From Jaminaea rosea (taxonomy: Eukaryota > Basidiomycota > Exobasidiomycetes > Microstromatales): a stretch of DNA of 64,000 nt. Below are positions 10,257-20,796 of the stretch, piece after piece. Each line of letters opens with the position of its first letter. The stretch's first letter is position 1. The stretch spans positions 1-64,000 of the forward strand of contig NW_020289988.1 in assembly GCF_003144245.1 (NCBI RefSeq), written 5' to 3'. The translations under genes were made by a program, and so were the position numbers. The notes beneath the pieces were generated by a model. That model saw nothing but the letters and a program-made list of their open reading frames with translations, had not been told where the DNA came from and ran no database searches.

Positions 10257-10843
10257 TCACTCGAGCTCCCCCTTGACGGCGTCTCTCAGTCGAAGGGGAG
10301 GCAGACCATCGTTTGCCTAAAGAGGGATACCGCAAGCGGATCAGCAACGTCCCGGGGCTCAGCCGAAACTCGCTCTTTCGCTTCACTCACAAACCTCAAG
10401 CACTCTGTGCACGACGCAGCAGCGGTTAGACAAGCAACGTGAGCCGTCCTTGCGCGCCGACGCACTGTATTTACCCGCATGCTCGACACAGTTTCTGCTG
10501 GGCACATTGAGGTTGGTGCAGCCCGAAGAGCAGTCCTCGGCGGAACAGCCTTGGGAGACCTTATGGCTGGGCACGACACTTTGGCATGGACCAACTTTGT
10601 TGACGCCAGGGTAGTTGTTGCCGTAGATGGTCGTGTATTTGACTCCACCGCAGAGATCGTCAACGGTGAAGCAGTAGCCTGGCTGAGCGCGTGGGGAGGT
10701 CAACCAAGGCAGAAACACTGAGGCGGATCGTTGCACTCGCCTAGGTAGTAGATACCAGTCGGGCCGTTTGCGGCGAAGATTATTGTCGACAGGTGGGCGA
10801 GAACGACTACAATCGCCGTGGTGACCGGTAAGAGGGAGAGCAT
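10257..10843 (-). CDS. small secreted eight-cysteine protein, paralogue A
   Basis: My reading gives four exons: 10843-10741, 10678-10475, 10404-10391 and 10316-10257, encoding 126 residues. The signal peptide is MLSLLPVTTAIVVVLAHLS and following residues. The mature part has eight cysteines spaced C-x6-C-x21-C-x12-C-x4-C-x3-C-x9-C-x5-C. The first intron starts GCGAGT (a GC-AG intron), and only this choice keeps the YYLG|YCF frame seen in the other paralogues. The third exon is 14 bases long and carries the last cysteine (ECLRF). The tail is short (ANDGLPPLRLRDAVKGELE). I do not recognise the family. A secreted, disulfide-bonded effector or surface protein is inference. Paralogues B-E lie in the next 7 kb. 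Confidence 0.75.
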
Positions 10844-11591
10844 GCTGGGGAGGACAAGATGATGGTGAGGAGGACAAAGCAATTGGTGTTGAGGATAGCG
10901 CCTTTTATTATTCCAAGGCGCACAGCAATCGACGGCGTCACTTTGCCGCAGGGCATCGGGCAGGTCACGGACCTCGGACCTCCTCGTTATCGCCTCATTG
11001 CTGATGCAAGACGCGCGGATCTCGACGCTTTGCAGGGTCAATGACAGCGCCTACGGTCAGCAGTTGGCCCACGTATTTGCACTGCACTCAGCTTCAAGAC
11101 ACGCCGCCATCATCATCCGACTGCCGCAGATCAACGTCAGGGCATCAGTAAAAAGGATGGTCCGGCGCTGTGATAGGGCACACAAAAGTTGCTGGGAAGT
11201 CAGAGTCATCATCGCTGCGCCCTTGGAGCTGCGTAGCCGAGAGCCCCTTCCTGACTGGCGTCATCCTTTCCTCTAGCTCACGAAGGCGGCGGGATATGTC
11301 GGGCGCATTCGTCGATGATTGGAACCGAGACGGTGCAGACCGCACTGCAGCACCGTCGAGCTCAATCGCATCGCAGGGAAGGCCGCTTGTCATCATTGAC
11401 TGCAGTTACATTCCTCAGTCGCAGACGAGGGACACCACAAGCGGCTTGATGGGGCAGAGGCGGATCAGAGTTGGCATTCCGCATTCCGCATTCTCTCGTT
11501 GAAGAGAACGAAAGATCAGTCCCAGGCCAACACAAGATGTCCCAACAGCAAGCCCCACGACGACGGGTATGGCGCGGGCGTGGCCGTTCTC
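10844..11591. other. upstream region of paralogue A, downstream of paralogue B
   Basis: No supported gene. An AT-rich AATAATAAAAGG (reading toward paralogue A) about 75 bases before its ATG may be a TATA element. Short frames on both strands show no family pattern. Confidence 0.4.
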
Positions 11592-12234
11592 TTACCCCTC
11601 GTCATCAATAGCGGAGTCTTTGCCGTCGAGTCGCTTAGCCGGAGGCCCATCGTCCTCCTGTCCAGGTAGAGGACTATCAGCTGGCAGTCAAACAAGTCAG
11701 TAGAGGACGCCGCACTCACGAAAATAAGGCAACCTGGGCGCGTGTGATTGCCAGCAAGGCAAGCCGTCAACTCTCCTACGACACAGACCATCCAACTAGC
11801 TCTCCCTTCGCGCGTACTCACGATAAGCCCTTGTATTGTCAATACAGGCATGCGCCTGAACTTTCATCGTGTCGCAGTCGGCGGAGCAATCCGGTTTGAC
11901 GCAGGCTTTGGTCACTGGGTGCCCAGGCGCGACACTCTCGCAGTATCCGATCTCATTGGCCCCAGGCAGCGTACTACCGTAGAGGGTGCGAGTCTGCTCT
12001 CCGCTGCATTTCAGCTCCTTGGTCCAGCAATAGCCTGCAGGGCGAGGAGAAGAGGAGAGAGGTTAATCGGGTAGATAGAGGATGCTGGGACGGAAAGGAG
12101 CGACACTCGCCTAGGTAGTGGATCTCTCCCGCTTCTTTCGCCTCGTGCGTAGTGACCGCAGTGATCAGAAAGACGAGGCCAACGAGGAGTACGACGACGT
12201 GAGGCACGACGAGGGGTTTCAAGGCTTTGAGCAT
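11592..12234 (-). CDS. small secreted eight-cysteine protein, paralogue B
   Basis: Four exons: 12234-12111, 12034-11822, 11733-11720 and 11657-11592, encoding 138 residues. The signal peptide or anchor is hydrophobic (PHVVVLLVGLVFLITAV). The mature part begins near GEIHYLG|YCWTKELKCSG and has eight cysteines at C-x6-C-x21-C-x12-C-x4-C-x3-C-x9-C-x8-C. Intron 1 has a GC donor (GCGAGT). The third exon is 14 bases and encodes the RCLIF segment with the last cysteine. The acidic tail ends DSAIDDEG. Exon phases (1, 1, 0) are identical to paralogues A, C and D, so these copies share one ancestor gene. Function unknown. It is closest in sequence to paralogue C. Confidence 0.78.
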
Positions 12235-12965
12235 GATAAGAGCTGGAAAGAGGTGGAGATCTTGGGCAGAATTGGGAGTGGGAAAATACAGGCAATCAGC
12301 TTCCATTTGCGACGGTCTAAAGACAACCCGGCGACGCGTAGGGCTACAGCGCTTTCGAATCGCACAACGCAGCGCCCGCATCATCATGACAATGCCGCCG
12401 CCATTGGCTGCAGAGCACGCTTACCGGCAGAATCAGCGGGTGGCTAGCGCCTCAAAGGGCGAGACATGGCGGGGTAAATCGGAGGCGATGGCAGAGAACA
12501 CTGTAGTGGGCACCGCACGGCCATGACCATGCGTGGCTGCGATGTCAAAGCCGGCAAGACCAAGCTGTGCCCTCGATCCGCGAGGATTTGGTCCTGAGGA
12601 TCGTCGTCCAATGTTGCCGCCTCCGACCTCCCGACCGAGCGAGGCGGATGAGCGAGGCGAAGACGGCCCACACGAGGAGCTCCGACGGCATGATCAAAGC
12701 GCTCACTTCACGGCCGTGCTCGACATAGCCTGTTTCAGACATGATGCCATCGTAGAGGGTCACGCGCCGATCTGGACCATACCGTGTGGGCGCCAGGGCG
12801 CGGACCTCGCCGATCGTACAGGAATGGCAGTCCCTCTCATCGTGGGCAAGGGGCAACAGCTGATATAGGCAGCCCTCACTCGTCTCGCCATCTTCTCCAA
12901 CACCTCCTAACTGCCCTCGCAACCAAGCATCTACCACTACATCGACTACATCACCCCAGCGCAGT
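12235..12965. other. divergent upstream region between paralogue B and the nine-cysteine gene
   Basis: No gene supported. A minus-strand frame at about 12690-12870 contains VTLYDGIMSETGYVEHG, faintly like the second exon of the eight-cysteine family, but the cysteines are absent and no exon structure fits. Confidence 0.35.
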
Positions 12966-13712
12966 ATGGTCATGCTTCTTACCTGGACGCACACCGCCAT
13001 GGCTCTCGCCGCCACCCTCACCGTCTTTGGTGTCAACATTGCCCCTCGCGCCGGACACAACGTCGCTCTCGAAGGAGGCGCAGCGCTCGAGGCAGCCCGA
13101 GCCACACCCTTCCCCGACGAGGCCGAGCCTCAGCAGCCCCGCGACACCATCGTCATGCCGGTGGCTGATCATATCCTCGCAACGAGAAACGTAGAAATCG
13201 GCCACTGCTGCTCCAACAGCATGTGCAAGGACGAAGGCTCCTCGGTTCAAGGTGTGGCTCAGGGCAAGAACCAGGTCCCTAATTGCGTTGGCTTCAAGTT
13301 GAAGTATTCAGCCGACTCTTTCTGCTCGTCCTCCAACTGCTCCAGCGCCACGGGCAAGTGCCGCGGGGGAGGGTTTCCTGCGGGAGGATGCTTGAGCTTC
13401 AGCACGGGTGAAACGGTCGGCTGCGTGGCCATGGGCAGTGGTGCCGTCGAGTTGTTCAAAGAACGTGCCAGCCAGGGTGCTCCTCAGCCTCGGCTTCTCG
13501 CTTCCGGTCTCAACAAGGCTCGAGGCAAGCTCGACATCAACGCCGCTCGTGATACGCACACGGTGTACAAAGCTCGAGACGCTCCCGAAGTCAACTCGGC
13601 CCGTCACGCCACCATCGCGCGTAAAGCTACAGTCCGTGGCGAGCAAGAAGCCGCTCTCGCAATTGACGCTGACGGGATCATCAATGAGAAAACTGCCGCT
13701 CGCGACGAGTAG
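12966..13712 (+). CDS. secreted cysteine-rich protein, unrelated to its neighbours
   Basis: A single exon of 248 codons from the ATG at 12966. A hydrophobic leader (MALAATLTVFGVNIA) suggests secretion. The centre (residues about 80-155) holds nine cysteines: GHCCSNSMC, PNCVGF, SFCSSSNCSSATGKC, GGCLSF and VGCVAM. The C-terminal 90 residues are cysteine-free and rich in Ala, Arg and Asp, with repeated AR-D/H motifs (AARDTH, KARDAP, SARHAT, AARDE). An odd cysteine number would leave one free thiol. I recognise no family. It is the only gene of this type in the island of eight-cysteine paralogues, which makes a role at the cell exterior plausible but unproven. Confidence 0.6.
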   Translation: MVMLLTWTHTAMALAATLTVFGVNIAPRAGHNVALEGGAALEAARATPFPDEAEPQQPRDTIVMPVADHILATRNVEIGHCCSNSMCKDEGSSVQGVAQGKNQVPNCVGFKLKYSADSFCSSSNCSSATGKCRGGGFPAGGCLSFSTGETVGCVAMGSGAVELFKERASQGAPQPRLLASGLNKARGKLDINAARDTHTVYKARDAPEVNSARHATIARKATVRGEQEAALAIDADGIINEKTAARDE

Positions 13713-14198
13713 TCTCGCACATCGTCGTTGTCAGACTTCGCCAGAGCAGACCAGACACAAGCCGCTTCTCTCTCGAGCACATACTGTAGAGCCCTGTCTG
13801 TGACAATCCTCTACTCGTTCGAAATACATCCTCACTTCAATTCGACGATGTCGTCTTTCAGCCGAGCCCTGCACGCGCGTGGATGATCCATCCGCACGCA
13901 CAGCTTCGTCGCAAGCAGTGTCTGCGAGCGCCCGTGGGGTCTCTTGACTTCTCTGACGATGCGAAGGCCTCACAGCAACTAAATCCTCAAGGTGGATGTG
14001 CTCAACAGCACTGCGCAGACATGCGGATGACACGGCCGCGGCGGGTGGGGCATTTGCTCATGACACGCGCGCGTACTCTCAGGCGTCACTCTCGATGCCA
14101 AGCAAGATCGCTCCTGCCGCACAATGATGGGACACATGATCATTGATCTCAAAGGTGGGGATCAAAGAATGAGAGAGTCGTGACAAGGCCGCCGCTGA
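13713..14198. other. convergent intergenic stretch
   Basis: Lies between the 3' ends of the nine-cysteine gene and paralogue C. No coding frame or recognisable element. Confidence 0.4.
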
Positions 14199-14827
14199 TT
14201 ACTGCAGCTTGGACGTGCCAGCAGGCTCCTTGGCGCCACGGACTGCGGCGCGGTCGCTGATGGACGAGGGTGGCTTCGGGTCGGGAGCCTGAGTTGAAGA
14301 GAGCAGATAATTAGTGAAGCTCTCGAGCAGCTCGCGCCAGACAAGGCGCTCACGAATACGAGGCACTCTGTGCGCCGGCGCGCAAATCAGCAAAAGGTCT
14401 AGACGAGCAGCACTCCTCCTCCCCCTTTTGAACGACTCACTGTAAGCCCTCGTATCCTCGATGCAGGCGTGTGGCTTCACGTTCATGGCGTCGCATCCGC
14501 CTGTGCAGTCCGAGTTGATACAGCCATCGACGACTGGATGGGCGGATGCGAAGCTCTGGCAATCGCCAATGGCGTTGGCGCCTGGTAATTTGCCAGTGAC
14601 GGTGCGCGTCTTGACGCCGCTACACTTGAGTTCGCTGGGCCAGCAATAGCCTGTGGATAGGCAGCAAAGAAGAGTCACACGGGCTGCAGAGCTTAGGCTG
14701 ATGAGCGGAGGTATCACTCGCCTAGGTACGTCCCATTAGGGGCGGCGCCCTGACCAAGGACCGTCTTGATACCCAGGTGAGCAAGGCCGACGAGAACAGC
14801 GGTAAGAAGCTTGAAGTTGATGGGCAT
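14199..14827 (-). CDS. small secreted eight-cysteine protein, paralogue C
   Basis: Four exons: 14827-14722, 14650-14441, 14367-14354 and 14288-14199, encoding 139 residues. The signal peptide is MPINFKLLTAVLVGLAHLG and following residues. The mature domain reads TYLG|YCWPSELKCSGVKT and onward, with cysteine spacing C-x6-C-x20-C-x12-C-x4-C-x3-C-x9-C-x8-C. Intron 1 again starts GCGAGT. The microexon is 14 bases and encodes KCLVF. The tail APDPKPPSSISDRAAVRGAK is hydrophilic. Strong identity with paralogue B, for example LPGAN and a shared HACI-x-x-TRAY, points to a recent tandem copy. Function unknown. Confidence 0.8.
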
Positions 14828-16089
14828 GGCGTCGTGTGGTGGAGTGAGGAGGAAAGAACAGCGTGTCTCGATGAGCGCACCGCCTGTCGTGTGTAGAAGG
14901 GTCACGGGCAACGTAGCGGTAGCTCTGGAAGCAAAGGGCTTCGAGCGCGGTTCAAGATTACCCCGTCCCATCGTGGAAGGATAAGAAGAGGGTTGTCACG
15001 GTAAAACACGTGGCCGCCGCAGCCGGTGCTCGATTGCTTGCTTTGAGCAACGGTCGTCTTCAGGCTCAGCCTGCGCCATCAAGCTGGGCTGTGGTCCCGC
15101 GGAGTCATGGCGATCTCCCAATCCCGGCCGTACTTGTCGAGCGCCAGCCTTCGCAGTGCCTCATCGCCACAGCCCGTTCTAGTCATCAGTCATGCCCTCA
15201 TCGCACTCAAGTGGCGATCGCAGGCCGTTTTGCCGCCGTGAGCGGCCCGCAACCTTGCTCCGCCCAACGACGGCATTCACTCGGCAATGTGCGGCTCATT
15301 CCCCGCCGCATCTGGCCTGAGCCCGTACCATTCACGGCGGCGGCGCACCGTACGGCCCGACCCGCTTGACAGCAGGCCCGCATTCAAGGAGGCGACGTTA
15401 AGTAGCTCGGTGGGTCCCTCGGGTTTGACGCATCTTTCGTGAATTGCTCCATCTTCCTCTTGCTCACGCTCCATCTTCGCGGGTGGCACGACAGTCACCA
15501 CGGCTGGTTAGTTTGCGCCTCAAAGCGCCTGTTTATCACAAACGCGAAGTGAATGAGACCACGCCGCGCAACCTTTCCTCTCTCGCGCAGCAATGCTTCA
15601 CGTCACTCAACATCGTCAGCGTGCTCGCAATGACCATGGTCCGTGGGCTCCTCTTTCGAAGATCAGTATTGCTACGTGGGGAAGCACGGCGAATTCTGGT
15701 CCTTCCGCGTCTGAGCAGAAAGAGCGCGAAATCGAAGAGGCCCACATTTGGTGCACGCTCACGCTTGAGCAAAGTCATTGTTTGATACCGTCCCCAGATA
15801 CGACTTCCTTTCTCACCGATGAAATGAAATTCAGGCAGCAGGCCAGAGCAGGGTCAAAGGCTGGTGATTAGACGAAGGTTAGCAGACGGCTATGAAGAGG
15901 CGATCCTACAATCCACTGCCGTCGCGGTCACGTTCGCTGCTCAGATCACCTGTATCTGGTGCCTCGTCGCTATCTTTGCCAACGTCCTTCTCTCATCGTC
16001 GCACCTGCCTTCGCTGAACTCCCTCTTCACCAACGCACGCACACTTAAGCACCCTCTCTTACAGTATTGTACAGGAGATACCGATTGCC
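14828..16089. other. long divergent intergenic region, paralogues C and D
   Basis: About 1.26 kb between the starts of paralogues C (minus) and D (plus). I see no coding frame with family features. It probably holds the promoters of both genes. Confidence 0.4.
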
Positions 16090-16746
16090 ATGTTCGCCAG
16101 CGTCAAGCTGATGAGCGTGCTGCTCGTCGGTCTCGCCCTCCGGGTGACCTCTGCCCCACCTCCAGAGCGTCCTCAAAGCCGCTGGCTCGGTGAGTGTCCG
16201 TCCACCTCCAGCACACGACGATTTCCTCTGACAGCACCCACTCCATGCCAGGATACTGTTGGACCCACGATTACAAATGCGGCGGCATCAAGGTGAAAGC
16301 GATCGACGGCCCCTACCCGGGCAATATACAGGTCAGGGACTGTCTCAGCATTGCACCCCGTTATGATCTCATTGCGGCATGCCTAGATCCACGCTGCGTC
16401 AAGCGCTGCGTGCCTGTAGACACCAAGGCGGATGTCTGTCTGGAAGGCGCTGCCCTGTACCGTGAGTCAGGCTGTCAGCAGGTCCCACAGTGGTTCAGTG
16501 CTCACATCGCCCTTGCTGCTTCTTTACAGGCTGCCTCAAGTTCGTGAGTACCACCGGCTCAAATATGTCGCTGACGTTCACAGGTTCTCACACCTACTCA
16601 TCGCGCATGCACAGGTCAAGCCCTACGCCGCTGCTACTGCTCGCGATGGGCATTTCAATGTCACCACCGTTGACGCTCGAGCTTCGGACGATGTCGAAGG
16701 CCGAGCTGTGGAGTATGGTCATATGTTCATTGAGCAGGACGGATGA
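16090..16746 (+). CDS. small secreted eight-cysteine protein, paralogue D
   Basis: Four exons: 16090-16189, 16252-16461, 16530-16543 and 16615-16746, encoding 151 residues. The signal peptide is MFASVKLMSVLLVGLALRV and following residues. The domain starts RWLG|YCWTHDYKCGG, with cysteines at C-x6-C-x20-C-x12-C-x4-C-x3-C-x9-C-x8-C. Exon phases and the 14-base microexon (RCLKF) match A-C, but here intron 1 has an ordinary GTGAGT donor. It is the only copy of the four-exon type on the plus strand. The last acceptor is uncertain: an earlier CAG (exon from 16584) would give a different tail of about 30 residues. I prefer 16615, because the tail then carries a GRAV segment like the RAAVRG of paralogue C. 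Confidence 0.76.
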
Positions 16747-16815
16747 ATGACCGGCAGCGGCTGGCCCGTGACAGCGTCAACACTTGTGCTCTATCTCAAC
16801 TACATCACATGAATT

Positions 16816-17271
16816 CTACTCGATGCTGTTGGTCGCGTTGTCTTTCGGAATGCAGTATGTGAAGAAATCGCCGCCAGGTGCCGGAGCGTAGCATTGGCTC
16901 TTTGTCACGTTGATGCAGAGCTTGCAGTTGTGTTCAGCGCAGATCTCGCCAAAAGACACGGCCGATCGAAACGAGTGACAGCTGACAAGGATATTCGTGA
17001 CACCACTGGGGCCAACTTCGATGGAGTGGGGGTCCGCTCCACACTTGCGGTCGTAATAACAAGTGCCAACGAACCTGCCAGTCGGCTCGCCCTTGGCCTG
17101 CACTACAGTCAAGATCGTCAGGAGGATGCCAATGGCGACGAAGAGCTTAGTGTATAGCTGCGGCGTGCGAAGGAGAGGGTTTTCAAAGCAAGCTTGCAGG
17201 GAAGAGTAGTGCATCGTCAGCATACTCACCATGTTGAAAAGTTCGTGAATGGAGGCAAAGCGAGTGAGCAT
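16816..17271 (-). CDS. small secreted eight-cysteine protein, divergent paralogue E
   Basis: Two exons, 17271-17230 and 17157-16816, encoding 127 residues. The 72-base intron (GTGAGT...CGCAG) is a multiple of three and contains no stop, so an unspliced message would insert 24 residues. Splicing gives a hydrophobic leader (LYTKLFVAIGILLTILTVV) ahead of KGEPTGRFVGTCYYDRKCG. Cysteine spacing is C-x5-C-x20-C-x12-C-x4-C-x2-C-x7-C-x12-C, which matches paralogues A-D although little else does. The domain is in one exon, with no GC-AG intron and no microexon. It may be a retrocopy-like or anciently diverged member. An ATG at 17304 in the same frame is a less likely start. Confidence 0.65.
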   Translation of the reverse strand: MLTRFASIHELFNMVSMLTMHYSSLQACFENPLLRTPQLYTKLFVAIGILLTILTVVQAKGEPTGRFVGTCYYDRKCGADPHSIEVGPSGVTNILVSCHSFRSAVSFGEICAEHNCKLCINVTKSQCYAPAPGGDFFTYCIPKDNATNSIE

Positions 17272-17630: not shown

Positions 17631-20525
17631 TCATCCAAACATCGCCCCTCCACCTCCCATCCTTCCCTTGCTCATCCCCACCCCGAGTCCAAACCTGCTC
17701 CCCGCTCCTCGCGCAGCAATGCTTCCTCCGCCCTTGACGGGCGAGAGGACGAGAGGGATCTCCAAGTTTGGGTTGAGGAGATTCTCACCATCGTCGTCAC
17801 CTCCTGGTCGCGAAGAGGAAGGGCCGTTGCTGCCGCCTGACGAGGAAGTGGCGCCCGAGCCGGGTCCAAGGAGGCGACGTTTCTTCTTGACCGCGGGCGG
17901 AGCAACCACTGCTGGGGCTGGGGCCTTCTTTGCTGCTGGGGCTGCGATCTTGCTGGTCGTCTTGCTCGTTGTCGGTACCGCGGCCCTTTTTTTCGTCGGA
18001 GCCACATCCACACTATCGTCCTCTTCTTCCTCGTCTTCGTCTGACTCGGCGGCCATCACAGGAGAGGAGGACACCTTCTGCTGAAGCGGCTTCTTTACCG
18101 CTGCAGCTACCTTGGACGGGGCAATGCGTGTCGCACTGGGCTTTGGAGGAGGAGGGGCAGCTCCCTTTCTCACTGGCGCAGGCGCAGCGTGCGCAGGGGC
18201 GGCGCGCTTTTTTGCCGGCTTGGCGACCTCCTCTTCTTCATCTTCTTCCTCATCGCTCACCTCAGCATAGACGGAGCGGGCCGGAGCGGCAGCTTTGCCT
18301 GCCGGTCGCTTGGTAGCTGCCACAGAGGGCATCGGCCGGATCGTCTCCTTAACCGCGGGCGAGGCTGAGACGGCCTTGGTGGGTGGTGCTCGTCGTGCGG
18401 TAGTGCTGCTTGCACCAGGCATGGGGCGAATCGTCTCCTTGATAGCGGGTGAAGCGGCCGGAGAGCGCGCTGCGGTGAGGCGAGACGAAGCCGTTGATGA
18501 TATTGCAGCCGCCTTGACCGGGGCCGGCTTGCTGCGAACAGGTGACGGCTCGGCCAGCTCGTCTCCGTCGTCGAATTCGCTTGGCGCACCTCGCGGGGGC
18601 GAGGAGGTAGGGGCGATATCGCTCGCCAGTTGAAGGTGGCTGCGACTTGCCGCATTGGTCGAGCTGATCTTGGAGCGACTGCTGCTGGGGAGGGCGGGGG
18701 ACTTGCTTGCACTCATCGGCACCGCTGCCCTCCTAGCCGTGCTGCTCGTCAAACTCGGCCTCGGTCGCACAGCCGCCGCCGCCGTCGTCTTGGCAGCTCC
18801 GTCGGCCTGCAGCCTCTTGACCTTCTCACCCCGCCTCTTTGCCCTCTCCTCCCTCTCCTCCCACTCCTCCTTCTTGCTCCTCTCCTGCGCCAGCTCCGCT
18901 TGCAGCAACAACGCCTCGATCCTGACTTGGGTGTGGCGCTCCTCAGCCGCCAAGTGTTGCAGTACCACATCGTCGCGCGAAAGCTTGAGTTCGTAAAACT
19001 GCGTCTTGAGGTGGTCGTATTTGCTGCGCAGTGCTTCAAGGGCGGTGGTGTCCGCGGAAACGGCAGGGACGGAGGCAGCGACGGCCAAATCTGACTGGAG
19101 CTGGACGATCTGGTCCTGCGAAGAGCGAACTTCTGATCGGGCTGCTCTGAGCTCGGCTTCGAGGGTGGCGCAGCGAGCATGCCAGTCAATGGGCGTTGAG
19201 ATGGATGGGCGGGGCTGCGTGACGATAGCAGCCGGGTCAGATGGCGGCGCATCATCCTGGGTAGATGCTGGGACGGCCTGCTCGGGTTTGACCTCAAATG
19301 AAGGCTGGGCCGCTGAGGGAGAAGCGTCGACTGAATGCAGCTTTGCACGTCCCGATGCTGCCTCGGATGAGCTGAGTGTGTGTGCTGGCTCTTCACGGCA
19401 CACGACTGGCTCTCGAAGCAGGACAGCCTTTGGTGTAGGCGGAGCAACCTCTTCCTCTTGTCGTCTTCTGTCTTCCTCCTGCCTTCTACGTTCCTCCTGC
19501 CTTCTACGCTCCTCCTCGCCTCTACGCTCCTGCTCCCTCGCTCTCTCTTCTTGCTCTATTCGCTCGCGCTCCTCCTCTTCCTCCCTCTGCATCTGCTCTT
19601 GCGCCTGCTGAATCGCCAAGCTCTTCCTGGCGACGACGACCTCTTCTTCTCGCATGGCAGCCTTCCTTGCGTCCAAGAACGGGTTCGCCCCCGCTTGCTC
19701 TTGCTCCATTGCTGCGAGGAGGCGACGCTCAAATTCGTCGTTTGCTGCTGTTGTGGCGGGAGACGGTGGAACGATAGGCTTCTTTACCGAGGGGGCAGCG
19801 CTGCGCTCTGAGGACTTGAAAGGGGAGGAAGAGGTGGATGCCTTGAGACTTGCGCTAGCTGGCTTGGGCGTGCTGATCGGGATCCGTGATGGCGACGTGG
19901 TACGCGATTGGGAGAGAGAGTTTGAAGTTGACAGGTGGTTGGTAGGAGCGGCGGCAATGGGCGTAGCATCGACATCTACGACGGCGCTGCGTGACGGCGT
20001 AGAATGACCTACTGTCTGGTTGTGACGCTGAATTTTGGCCTCCCTCACAGCTCGGGGCGTTTCGTTCCCGACCTCGTCGCGCTTTCTTTGCAGGCCATTG
20101 AGCGAGGTGCGCGGGCCCTGAGCAGCGGTTACGCTGTTGTTGACGTCGCCGCCAAGCACGACGTTACGTCCCGTCTTTGCAGCTCGATTGGCTGCCGTGT
20201 CGTATAGCGTGCCTGGGCGTGAGGGACTCGGTCGGGGAAGAGAGGCGCTGATGGCACTGGCATTGGACGATGATGTTGTTGATGCGACGTTGGCGGCGTT
20301 GGCGGCGTTGGCGGCGTTGGCGGCGCTGGTGGATGTCATGAATCTCTCATTGTGATCCCTCCGTGATGAGCCGAGCGACTCGAGTGGTTCCCAAACGTAT
20401 TGTTGAGCCTTAGACGCTGTAATTGCTGCTGGCGGCGGCGTGGTCTGGGCGGGAGTGGATGGCGTTGGCGTAATGCGTTGCTGCTGTGAAGCATCACGCT
20501 TAGGTGGTGTCCTCTCGATGAGCAT
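17631..20525 (-). CDS. large low-complexity coiled-coil protein, function unknown
   Basis: One open frame of 964 codons from the ATG at 20525 (MLIERTPPKRD). The frame is open further upstream, but only with non-ATG starts. The N-terminal third is rich in Ser, Thr, Pro and Ala and contains a short Asn-Ala-Ala repeat. Around residues 295-360 there is a highly charged Glu/Arg/Gln coiled coil (repeats of EERRRQ). A second coiled coil near 450-550 starts ATLEAELRAARSEV. The C-terminal 400 residues alternate basic-Ala/Pro tracts with acidic patches and several copies of a KETIRPMP motif, and the end reads LNPNLEIPLVLSPVKGG then GSRFGLGVG. I recognise no domain. A nuclear or cytoskeletal scaffold is possible. 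It is divergent to DOT1, with 271 bases between the starts. Confidence 0.7.
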   Translation of the reverse strand: MLIERTPPKRDASQQQRITPTPSTPAQTTPPPAAITASKAQQYVWEPLESLGSSRRDHNERFMTSTSAANAANAANAANVASTTSSSNASAISASLPRPSPSRPGTLYDTAANRAAKTGRNVVLGGDVNNSVTAAQGPRTSLNGLQRKRDEVGNETPRAVREAKIQRHNQTVGHSTPSRSAVVDVDATPIAAAPTNHLSTSNSLSQSRTTSPSRIPISTPKPASASLKASTSSSPFKSSERSAAPSVKKPIVPPSPATTAANDEFERRLLAAMEQEQAGANPFLDARKAAMREEEVVVARKSLAIQQAQEQMQREEEEERERIEQEERAREQERRGEEERRRQEERRRQEEDRRRQEEEVAPPTPKAVLLREPVVCREEPAHTLSSSEAASGRAKLHSVDASPSAAQPSFEVKPEQAVPASTQDDAPPSDPAAIVTQPRPSISTPIDWHARCATLEAELRAARSEVRSSQDQIVQLQSDLAVAASVPAVSADTTALEALRSKYDHLKTQFYELKLSRDDVVLQHLAAEERHTQVRIEALLLQAELAQERSKKEEWEEREERAKRRGEKVKRLQADGAAKTTAAAAVRPRPSLTSSTARRAAVPMSASKSPALPSSSRSKISSTNAASRSHLQLASDIAPTSSPPRGAPSEFDDGDELAEPSPVRSKPAPVKAAAISSTASSRLTAARSPAASPAIKETIRPMPGASSTTARRAPPTKAVSASPAVKETIRPMPSVAATKRPAGKAAAPARSVYAEVSDEEEDEEEEVAKPAKKRAAPAHAAPAPVRKGAAPPPPKPSATRIAPSKVAAAVKKPLQQKVSSSPVMAAESDEDEEEEDDSVDVAPTKKRAAVPTTSKTTSKIAAPAAKKAPAPAVVAPPAVKKKRRLLGPGSGATSSSGGSNGPSSSRPGGDDDGENLLNPNLEIPLVLSPVKGGGSIAARGAGSRFGLGVGMSKGRMGGGGAMFG
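20289..20324. repeat. 9-base tandem repeat, four copies
   Basis: The unit GTTGGCGGC occurs four times in a row. On the minus strand it encodes Ala-Asn-Ala repeats near the N-terminus of the coiled-coil protein, so it adds or removes whole tripeptides and can vary without breaking the frame. Confidence 0.85.
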
Positions 20526-20796
20526 GATGGAGGAGTGGATGTGCGTATATGCGGCGTCAAGATTGCTCAGTTGTGTGTTGCTCTCGCGCCTCTCGCGTTG
20601 TATGCAAGCCAAGGCTGGTCCGGATCTCAGTCGCGCTTGGATTCGCGTCACGTGATGCGGGGCAGGTCGTGTGGATGGCGGTGGCGGCGGGGTGACGATG
20701 ATCCGATGCAGCGATGCGACGCAGCTGCTGCGATTGAGCAGCAATCAATCATTCCTATCCCCTCGACTGCATATATCCATCTCATCCACCTCATCC

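Follow-up and report, generated by a model that had tools for sequence, protein, structure and literature searches.

Positions 1–64000 of contig C14 (534 kb) from the genome of Jaminaea rosea (16.6 Mb, 21 contigs) were analysed, and this stretch of 64,000 nucleotides is referred to as the window. Jaminaea rosea is a member of the Microstromatales, Ustilaginomycotina, a smut-relative lineage. Between the gene for a Bmt2 rRNA methyltransferase and a long open frame, the window contains six genes, not five as originally predicted, which encode small, cysteine-rich and probably secreted proteins. They represent a single tandem group within a family that is expanded in J. rosea to at least 40 domains. 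Each protein is predicted to contain one disulfide-stabilised domain of about 75–85 residues that is folded as a double Greek key (betagamma-crystallin fold), like the Williopsis mrakii killer toxin (WmKT). The five genes of the original prediction are all present at 10257–17271, but the sixth member (plus strand, 12966–13712) had been missed, as had the much greater extent of the family. The original description of tandem paralogs that are short, have eight cysteines and are probably secreted is supported. The genes are listed below with the E-values from the family profile.

10257..10843 (-), gene 1, 129 residues; exons 10741-10843, 10466-10678, 10391-10404 and 10257-10316; eight-cysteine domain, E 1.2e-9; deposited model P0001 (BDZ90DRAFT_262109) the same except for the end of exon 1
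11592..12234 (-), gene 2, 138 residues; exons 12111-12234, 11822-12034, 11720-11733 and 11592-11657; eight-cysteine domain, E 5.3e-12; deposited model P0005 (BDZ90DRAFT_262110) the same except for the end of exon 1
12966..13712 (+), gene 6, 248 residues; open frame in a single exon with a long C-terminal tail; E 9e-12; near-identical copy P0003
14199..14827 (-), gene 3, 139 residues; exons 14722-14827, 14441-14650, 14354-14367 and 14199-14288; eight-cysteine domain, E 6.4e-13; deposited model P0007 (BDZ90DRAFT_228233) the same except for the end of exon 1, with an AlphaFold model
16090..16746 (+), gene 4, 151 residues; exons 16090-16189, 16252-16461, 16530-16543 and 16615-16746; eight-cysteine domain, E 6.7e-11
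16816..17271 (-), gene 5; either exons 17230-17271 and 16816-17157 or a single exon; E 6.4e-16; AlphaFold model

Gene structure and cysteine signature

The genes 1 to 4 consist of four exons each, and their three introns lie at matching places: immediately ahead of the domain's first cysteine, between cysteines 7 and 8, and three residues past cysteine 8. Introns 2 and 3 of genes 1, 2 and 3 are the same in the deposited J. rosea models P0001, P0005 and P0007, while the protein searches returned no deposited model for gene 4. A family member on contig C1 likewise has an intron between cysteines 7 and 8, as the comparison of P0006 with its genomic frame shows. Intron 1 starts with GCGAGT after CTAG in genes 1 to 3 (exon-1 ends 10741, 12111 and 14722) and with GTGAGT in gene 4. 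Reading the GC donor leads to Y-L-G-Y-C in all of genes 1 to 3, and many of the aligned relatives have G-x-C after a hydrophobic residue. The deposited models use three differing GT donors for this intron (GTATCT, GTCGCT and GTCAGG). The deposited exon-1 ends of genes 1 to 3 may be wrong, and intron 1 appears to use a GC donor there. In gene 5 the eight-cysteine domain lies entirely inside a single exon; the record P0002 gives no independent support for this gene because it is the window's own frame.

In the final models the residues between successive cysteines number 6-21-12-4-3-9-8 in genes 1 and 2, 6-20-12-4-3-9-8 in genes 3 and 4, and 5-20-12-4-2-7-12 in gene 5. The original observation is confirmed. 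A last spacer of 5 results in gene 1 from another intron-2 donor; if the donor is taken from the deposited model P0001, the last spacer is 8 in all of genes 1 to 4. Counted from the first cysteine of its CC pair, gene 6 shows x5-x19-x12-x4-x6-x9-x10 and thereby has the same x19, x12, x4 ladder. The most hydrophobic stretch of 11 residues is located near the N-terminus in all six proteins, with a mean hydropathy of 2.04–3.54; the contrast is weakest in gene 6 (2.04 versus 1.69 elsewhere). By their hydropathy, these stretches are probably signal peptides and the proteins are probably secreted.

Homology, family size and divergence

A regular expression for the seven-cysteine core, derived from the window's own genes, gave five matches in the window, all within 10–17.4 kb; 60 windows generated by a second-order Markov model contained none. 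A profile built from 18 relatives outside the window was run against the 1273 six-frame segments of the window. It recovered the six genes at E-values from 6.4e-16 to 1.2e-9, whereas the next segment scored 0.67; among the controls, the best value was 0.27 for reversed and 0.7 for shuffled segments. The test was not a blind one, because the relatives were recruited by likeness to window and related domains and partly by a cysteine expression. The stronger and cleaner control was to shuffle all other residues with the cysteines fixed. None of 200 shuffles per gene reached the real score in any of the six genes (real scores 37–50 bits, best shuffle 26), and the likeness within the family therefore exceeds cysteine spacing. 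A chance spacing of cysteines is rejected by the profile search and these shuffles.

Seven single domains were used for whole-genome searches, followed by the profile over about 230 kb of fetched sequence. At least 40 domain places were found at an independent E-value (iE) of 5e-4 or better on seven contigs of the J. rosea genome. This number is a lower bound rather than a census, because 24 of the 40 domains had gone into the profile and the fetched sequence amounts to about 230 kb of the 16.6 Mb genome. The profile list comprises 44 rows to iE 0.1, including one duplicate and three weaker rows, with the best reversed match at 0.41. At 130–140 kb of the same contig (L046 and L011, C14:130234-140137), eight domain places form a second array, six of them on the plus and two on the minus strand.

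Searches of Pfam (24 family domains), NCBIfam and the PDB sequences gave nothing at the respective cut-off or with E below 0.002, and the statement that the proteins match no named family holds at this level. Protein searches covering 5.8 billion sequences returned only gene 5 itself, J. rosea proteins and three near-identical copies, P0003, P0004 and P0008 (3 of 7578, 4 of 2608 and 2 of 8 candidates per search); since this method needs shared five-residue words, distant relatives, for example in other smuts, could be missed. None of the titles listed by the literature searches deals with this eight-cysteine family. The family is without a named sequence domain and, in the three protein searches made, is seen only in J. 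rosea and near-identical sequences.

The six window genes share 21–59% pairwise identity in the core. They had been regarded as fast-evolving, which the substitution pattern does not support. In pairwise comparison of the whole exon 2 of genes 1 to 4 (six pairs), the proportion of nonsynonymous differences (pN) is 0.21–0.46 versus 0.56–0.88 for synonymous ones (pS). The synonymous distance dS is 1.0 and 2.3 in two pairs and beyond the formula in four of the six, so large that a precise ratio is unobtainable. The domains of the near-identical copies, which stem from other datasets, are almost unchanged. P0003 and gene 6 are identical at 122 of 122 positions over residues 49–170, which contain the domain (cysteines 81–153), and changes occur only before and after this part. 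P0008 is identical to gene 3 at all 69 residues of exon 2, and P0004 has three changes in 101 residues relative to its counterpart on contig C8, of which one lies inside the domain. From these comparisons the domains look old and constrained, and positive selection was rejected as the cause of their divergence.

Predicted fold

The original prediction, which had suggested fold prediction as a check, had not recognised the fold; when the prediction was run, it pointed to a betagamma-crystallin fold. The AlphaFold models of P0007 (gene 3) and gene 5 consist mostly of strand and loop. Members of the betagamma-crystallin class have a domain of about 80–90 residues with two four-strand Greek keys, and WmKT-type proteins are secreted and have a single double Greek key with several disulfides. 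On the side of the family there are eight cysteines, an N-terminal hydrophobic stretch and the predicted fold. WmKT itself (PDB 1wkt) shares 12% identity with the family; it has ten cysteines, compared with eight here, and comes from a phylum different from that of J. rosea. The betagamma-crystallin domain of the Abundant Perithecial Protein of Neurospora crassa (PDB 5z6e) shares 11–12% identity. The title of this PDB entry names calcium, whereas the calcium-binding betagamma-crystallin motif, [DN][DN]xx[ST]S, was found in none of the 24 family rows. MiAMP1 and Ecp4/Ecp7 of Cladosporium fulvum are crystallin-like as well.

Two points lower the confidence in this fold assignment: both fold models draw on the same sequence set, and the match list of Foldseek is itself mixed. 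The C-terminal domain of a GH29 fucosidase occupies rows 1 and 5 of the VIA structure list, and its crystallin-like status could not be confirmed. AFP1 of Streptomyces tendae (PDB 1g6e), a small antifungal protein counted with WmKT among the closest known systems, is ranked sixth by Foldseek (E 1.7, TM-score 0.41 by target) and is not among the 50 rows listed from VIA. The viral structure library gave nothing at E 0.001; its best row is an ascovirus 25.4 kDa protein (E 0.052, probability 0.97). At the sequence level, PF09076 reaches 13.1 bits in one of the 24 domains against a gathering score of 25, and PF00030 is absent from their Pfam match list. Because the gathering score is not reached, the family is not filed as a sequence member of these betagamma-crystallin families.

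The best Pfam values, all below cut-off, belong to SLR1-BP (0.0023, in three of the 24 domains) and DUF3586 (0.0028), and the remaining ones are scattered and include a crystallin model at 0.085. The SLR1-BP matches, together with gamma-thionin (0.066), Defensin-like (0.064) and, among the PDB sequences, scorpion potassium-channel toxin (0.26 and 0.46), might suggest defensin-like peptides with a cysteine-stabilised alpha-beta fold. However, none of these matches reaches its cut-off, and those to SLR1-BP and gamma-thionin are limited to the part from cysteine 3 to cysteine 8. Such defensins combine a C-x3-C helix motif with a C-x-C strand motif. The latter is found in none of the 24 rows (two relatives on contig C3, outside these 24, have one), and the models, mostly strand and loop, also disfavour a defensin-like fold, which we consider highly improbable.

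Possible function on the leaf surface

The gene structures, the cysteine signature, the introns shared by genes 1 to 4 and a homology across the genome that exceeds cysteine spacing are observed, whereas the fold and the secretion are predicted and the function is inferred. Our preferred explanation, with a probability of about 0.55, is a probably secreted crystallin-fold family of at least 40 domains whose members recognise targets on the leaf surface. The proteins would act outside the cell as stable recognition modules, as killer or antimicrobial proteins whose most likely targets would be competing microbes, and the paralogs may have diversified for different targets. WmKT-type toxins kill sensitive yeasts by inhibition of beta-glucan synthesis. 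The charges of the family domains are mixed and lend no support to simple membrane lysis. PMC7766764 lists J. rosea as a phylloplane (leaf-surface) fungus, and PMC13127573 describes effector candidates with ancient antimicrobial roles. According to PMC10462633, the WmKT fold class is among the widespread orphan secreted folds of other fungi, and in Pezizomycotina the betagamma-crystallin/WmKT class comprises orphan candidate effectors that are short, have a secretion signal, lack a Pfam domain and adopt a double Greek key. The J. rosea proteins resemble this class, as described there, in their length, the predicted secretion signal, the lack of a Pfam domain and the predicted double Greek key; they differ in belonging to another subphylum and in forming a single expanded set of paralogs that has a cysteine signature of its own. 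By its predicted fold, the family would join a class common to killer toxins and orphan effector candidates.

The same fold could also be directed at the plant, as the original prediction had suggested, the proteins being apoplastic effectors of an unrecognised plant-associated stage. The smut-relative lineage, the leaf-surface habitat (PMC7766764) and the tandem arrangement of small cysteine-rich proteins are consistent with this, as is the counting of the fold class among orphan candidate effectors in PMC10462633. On the other hand, 12 of the 15 passages on J. rosea in PMC7766764 were covered and mention no parasitic stage, exon 2 of genes 1 to 4 bears no sign of positive selection, and the domains of the near-identical copies hardly change. 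In addition, structural similarity of sequence-unrelated secreted proteins is, according to PMC9816061, not necessarily unique to phytopathogens. We regard a role as plant effectors as possible but unlikely. We also know of no parasitic stage of J. rosea.

Two genes with other architectures bring a structural role at the yeast surface or sheath into consideration, in adhesion or in binding of wall or capsule, with no antagonistic or host role. The member on contig C8 (L049, C8:435760-435993) has its domain at the C-terminal end of an open frame of 851 residues, directly after a low-complexity stretch, and one gene on contig C1 (L010, C1:1872799-1874064) has a hydrophobic start and three family domains in tandem with long linkers. 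Wall proteins often have such long, low-complexity or multi-domain architectures. Most of the remaining members found consist of one short domain, and a structural role leaves the many strongly diverged paralogs unexplained. We consider it less probable than a role as plant effectors. Microbial antagonism is preferred to plant manipulation by about two to one, and a surface structure comes third.

If microbial antagonism is the function, its boldest form would be an arsenal restricted to this lineage, in which about 40 secreted proteins with the killer-toxin fold share a new eight-cysteine scaffold and the paralogs are tuned to different microbial competitors on the leaf. We consider this form doubtful; if true, the arsenal would parallel, in a fungus, the large bacteriocin repertoires of bacteria. 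So large an expansion in a yeast of the leaf surface would decouple the term small cysteine-rich secreted protein from plant effector, and the family offers a tractable paralog set for asking what such folds recognise.

The Bmt2 gene (Pfam E 1.1e-46) and a kinase gene are located just to the left of the cluster; on the right, the open frame 17634-20603 has no Pfam match. A subtelomeric island was rejected, since the contig lacks a telomere repeat array in its first 600 bases and the kinase and Bmt2 genes adjoin the cluster on the left. After the domains of the C1 gene, a GCVVLGS-like stretch resembles that around cysteine 8 of gene 6. Contig C3 carries a divergent subfamily (L057 and L058; C3:1368701 and C3:1390912-1391549) whose cysteine ladder is altered (CxxCPC); one of its members, at 1391349, is weak (iE 2e-3) and lies on the opposite strand.
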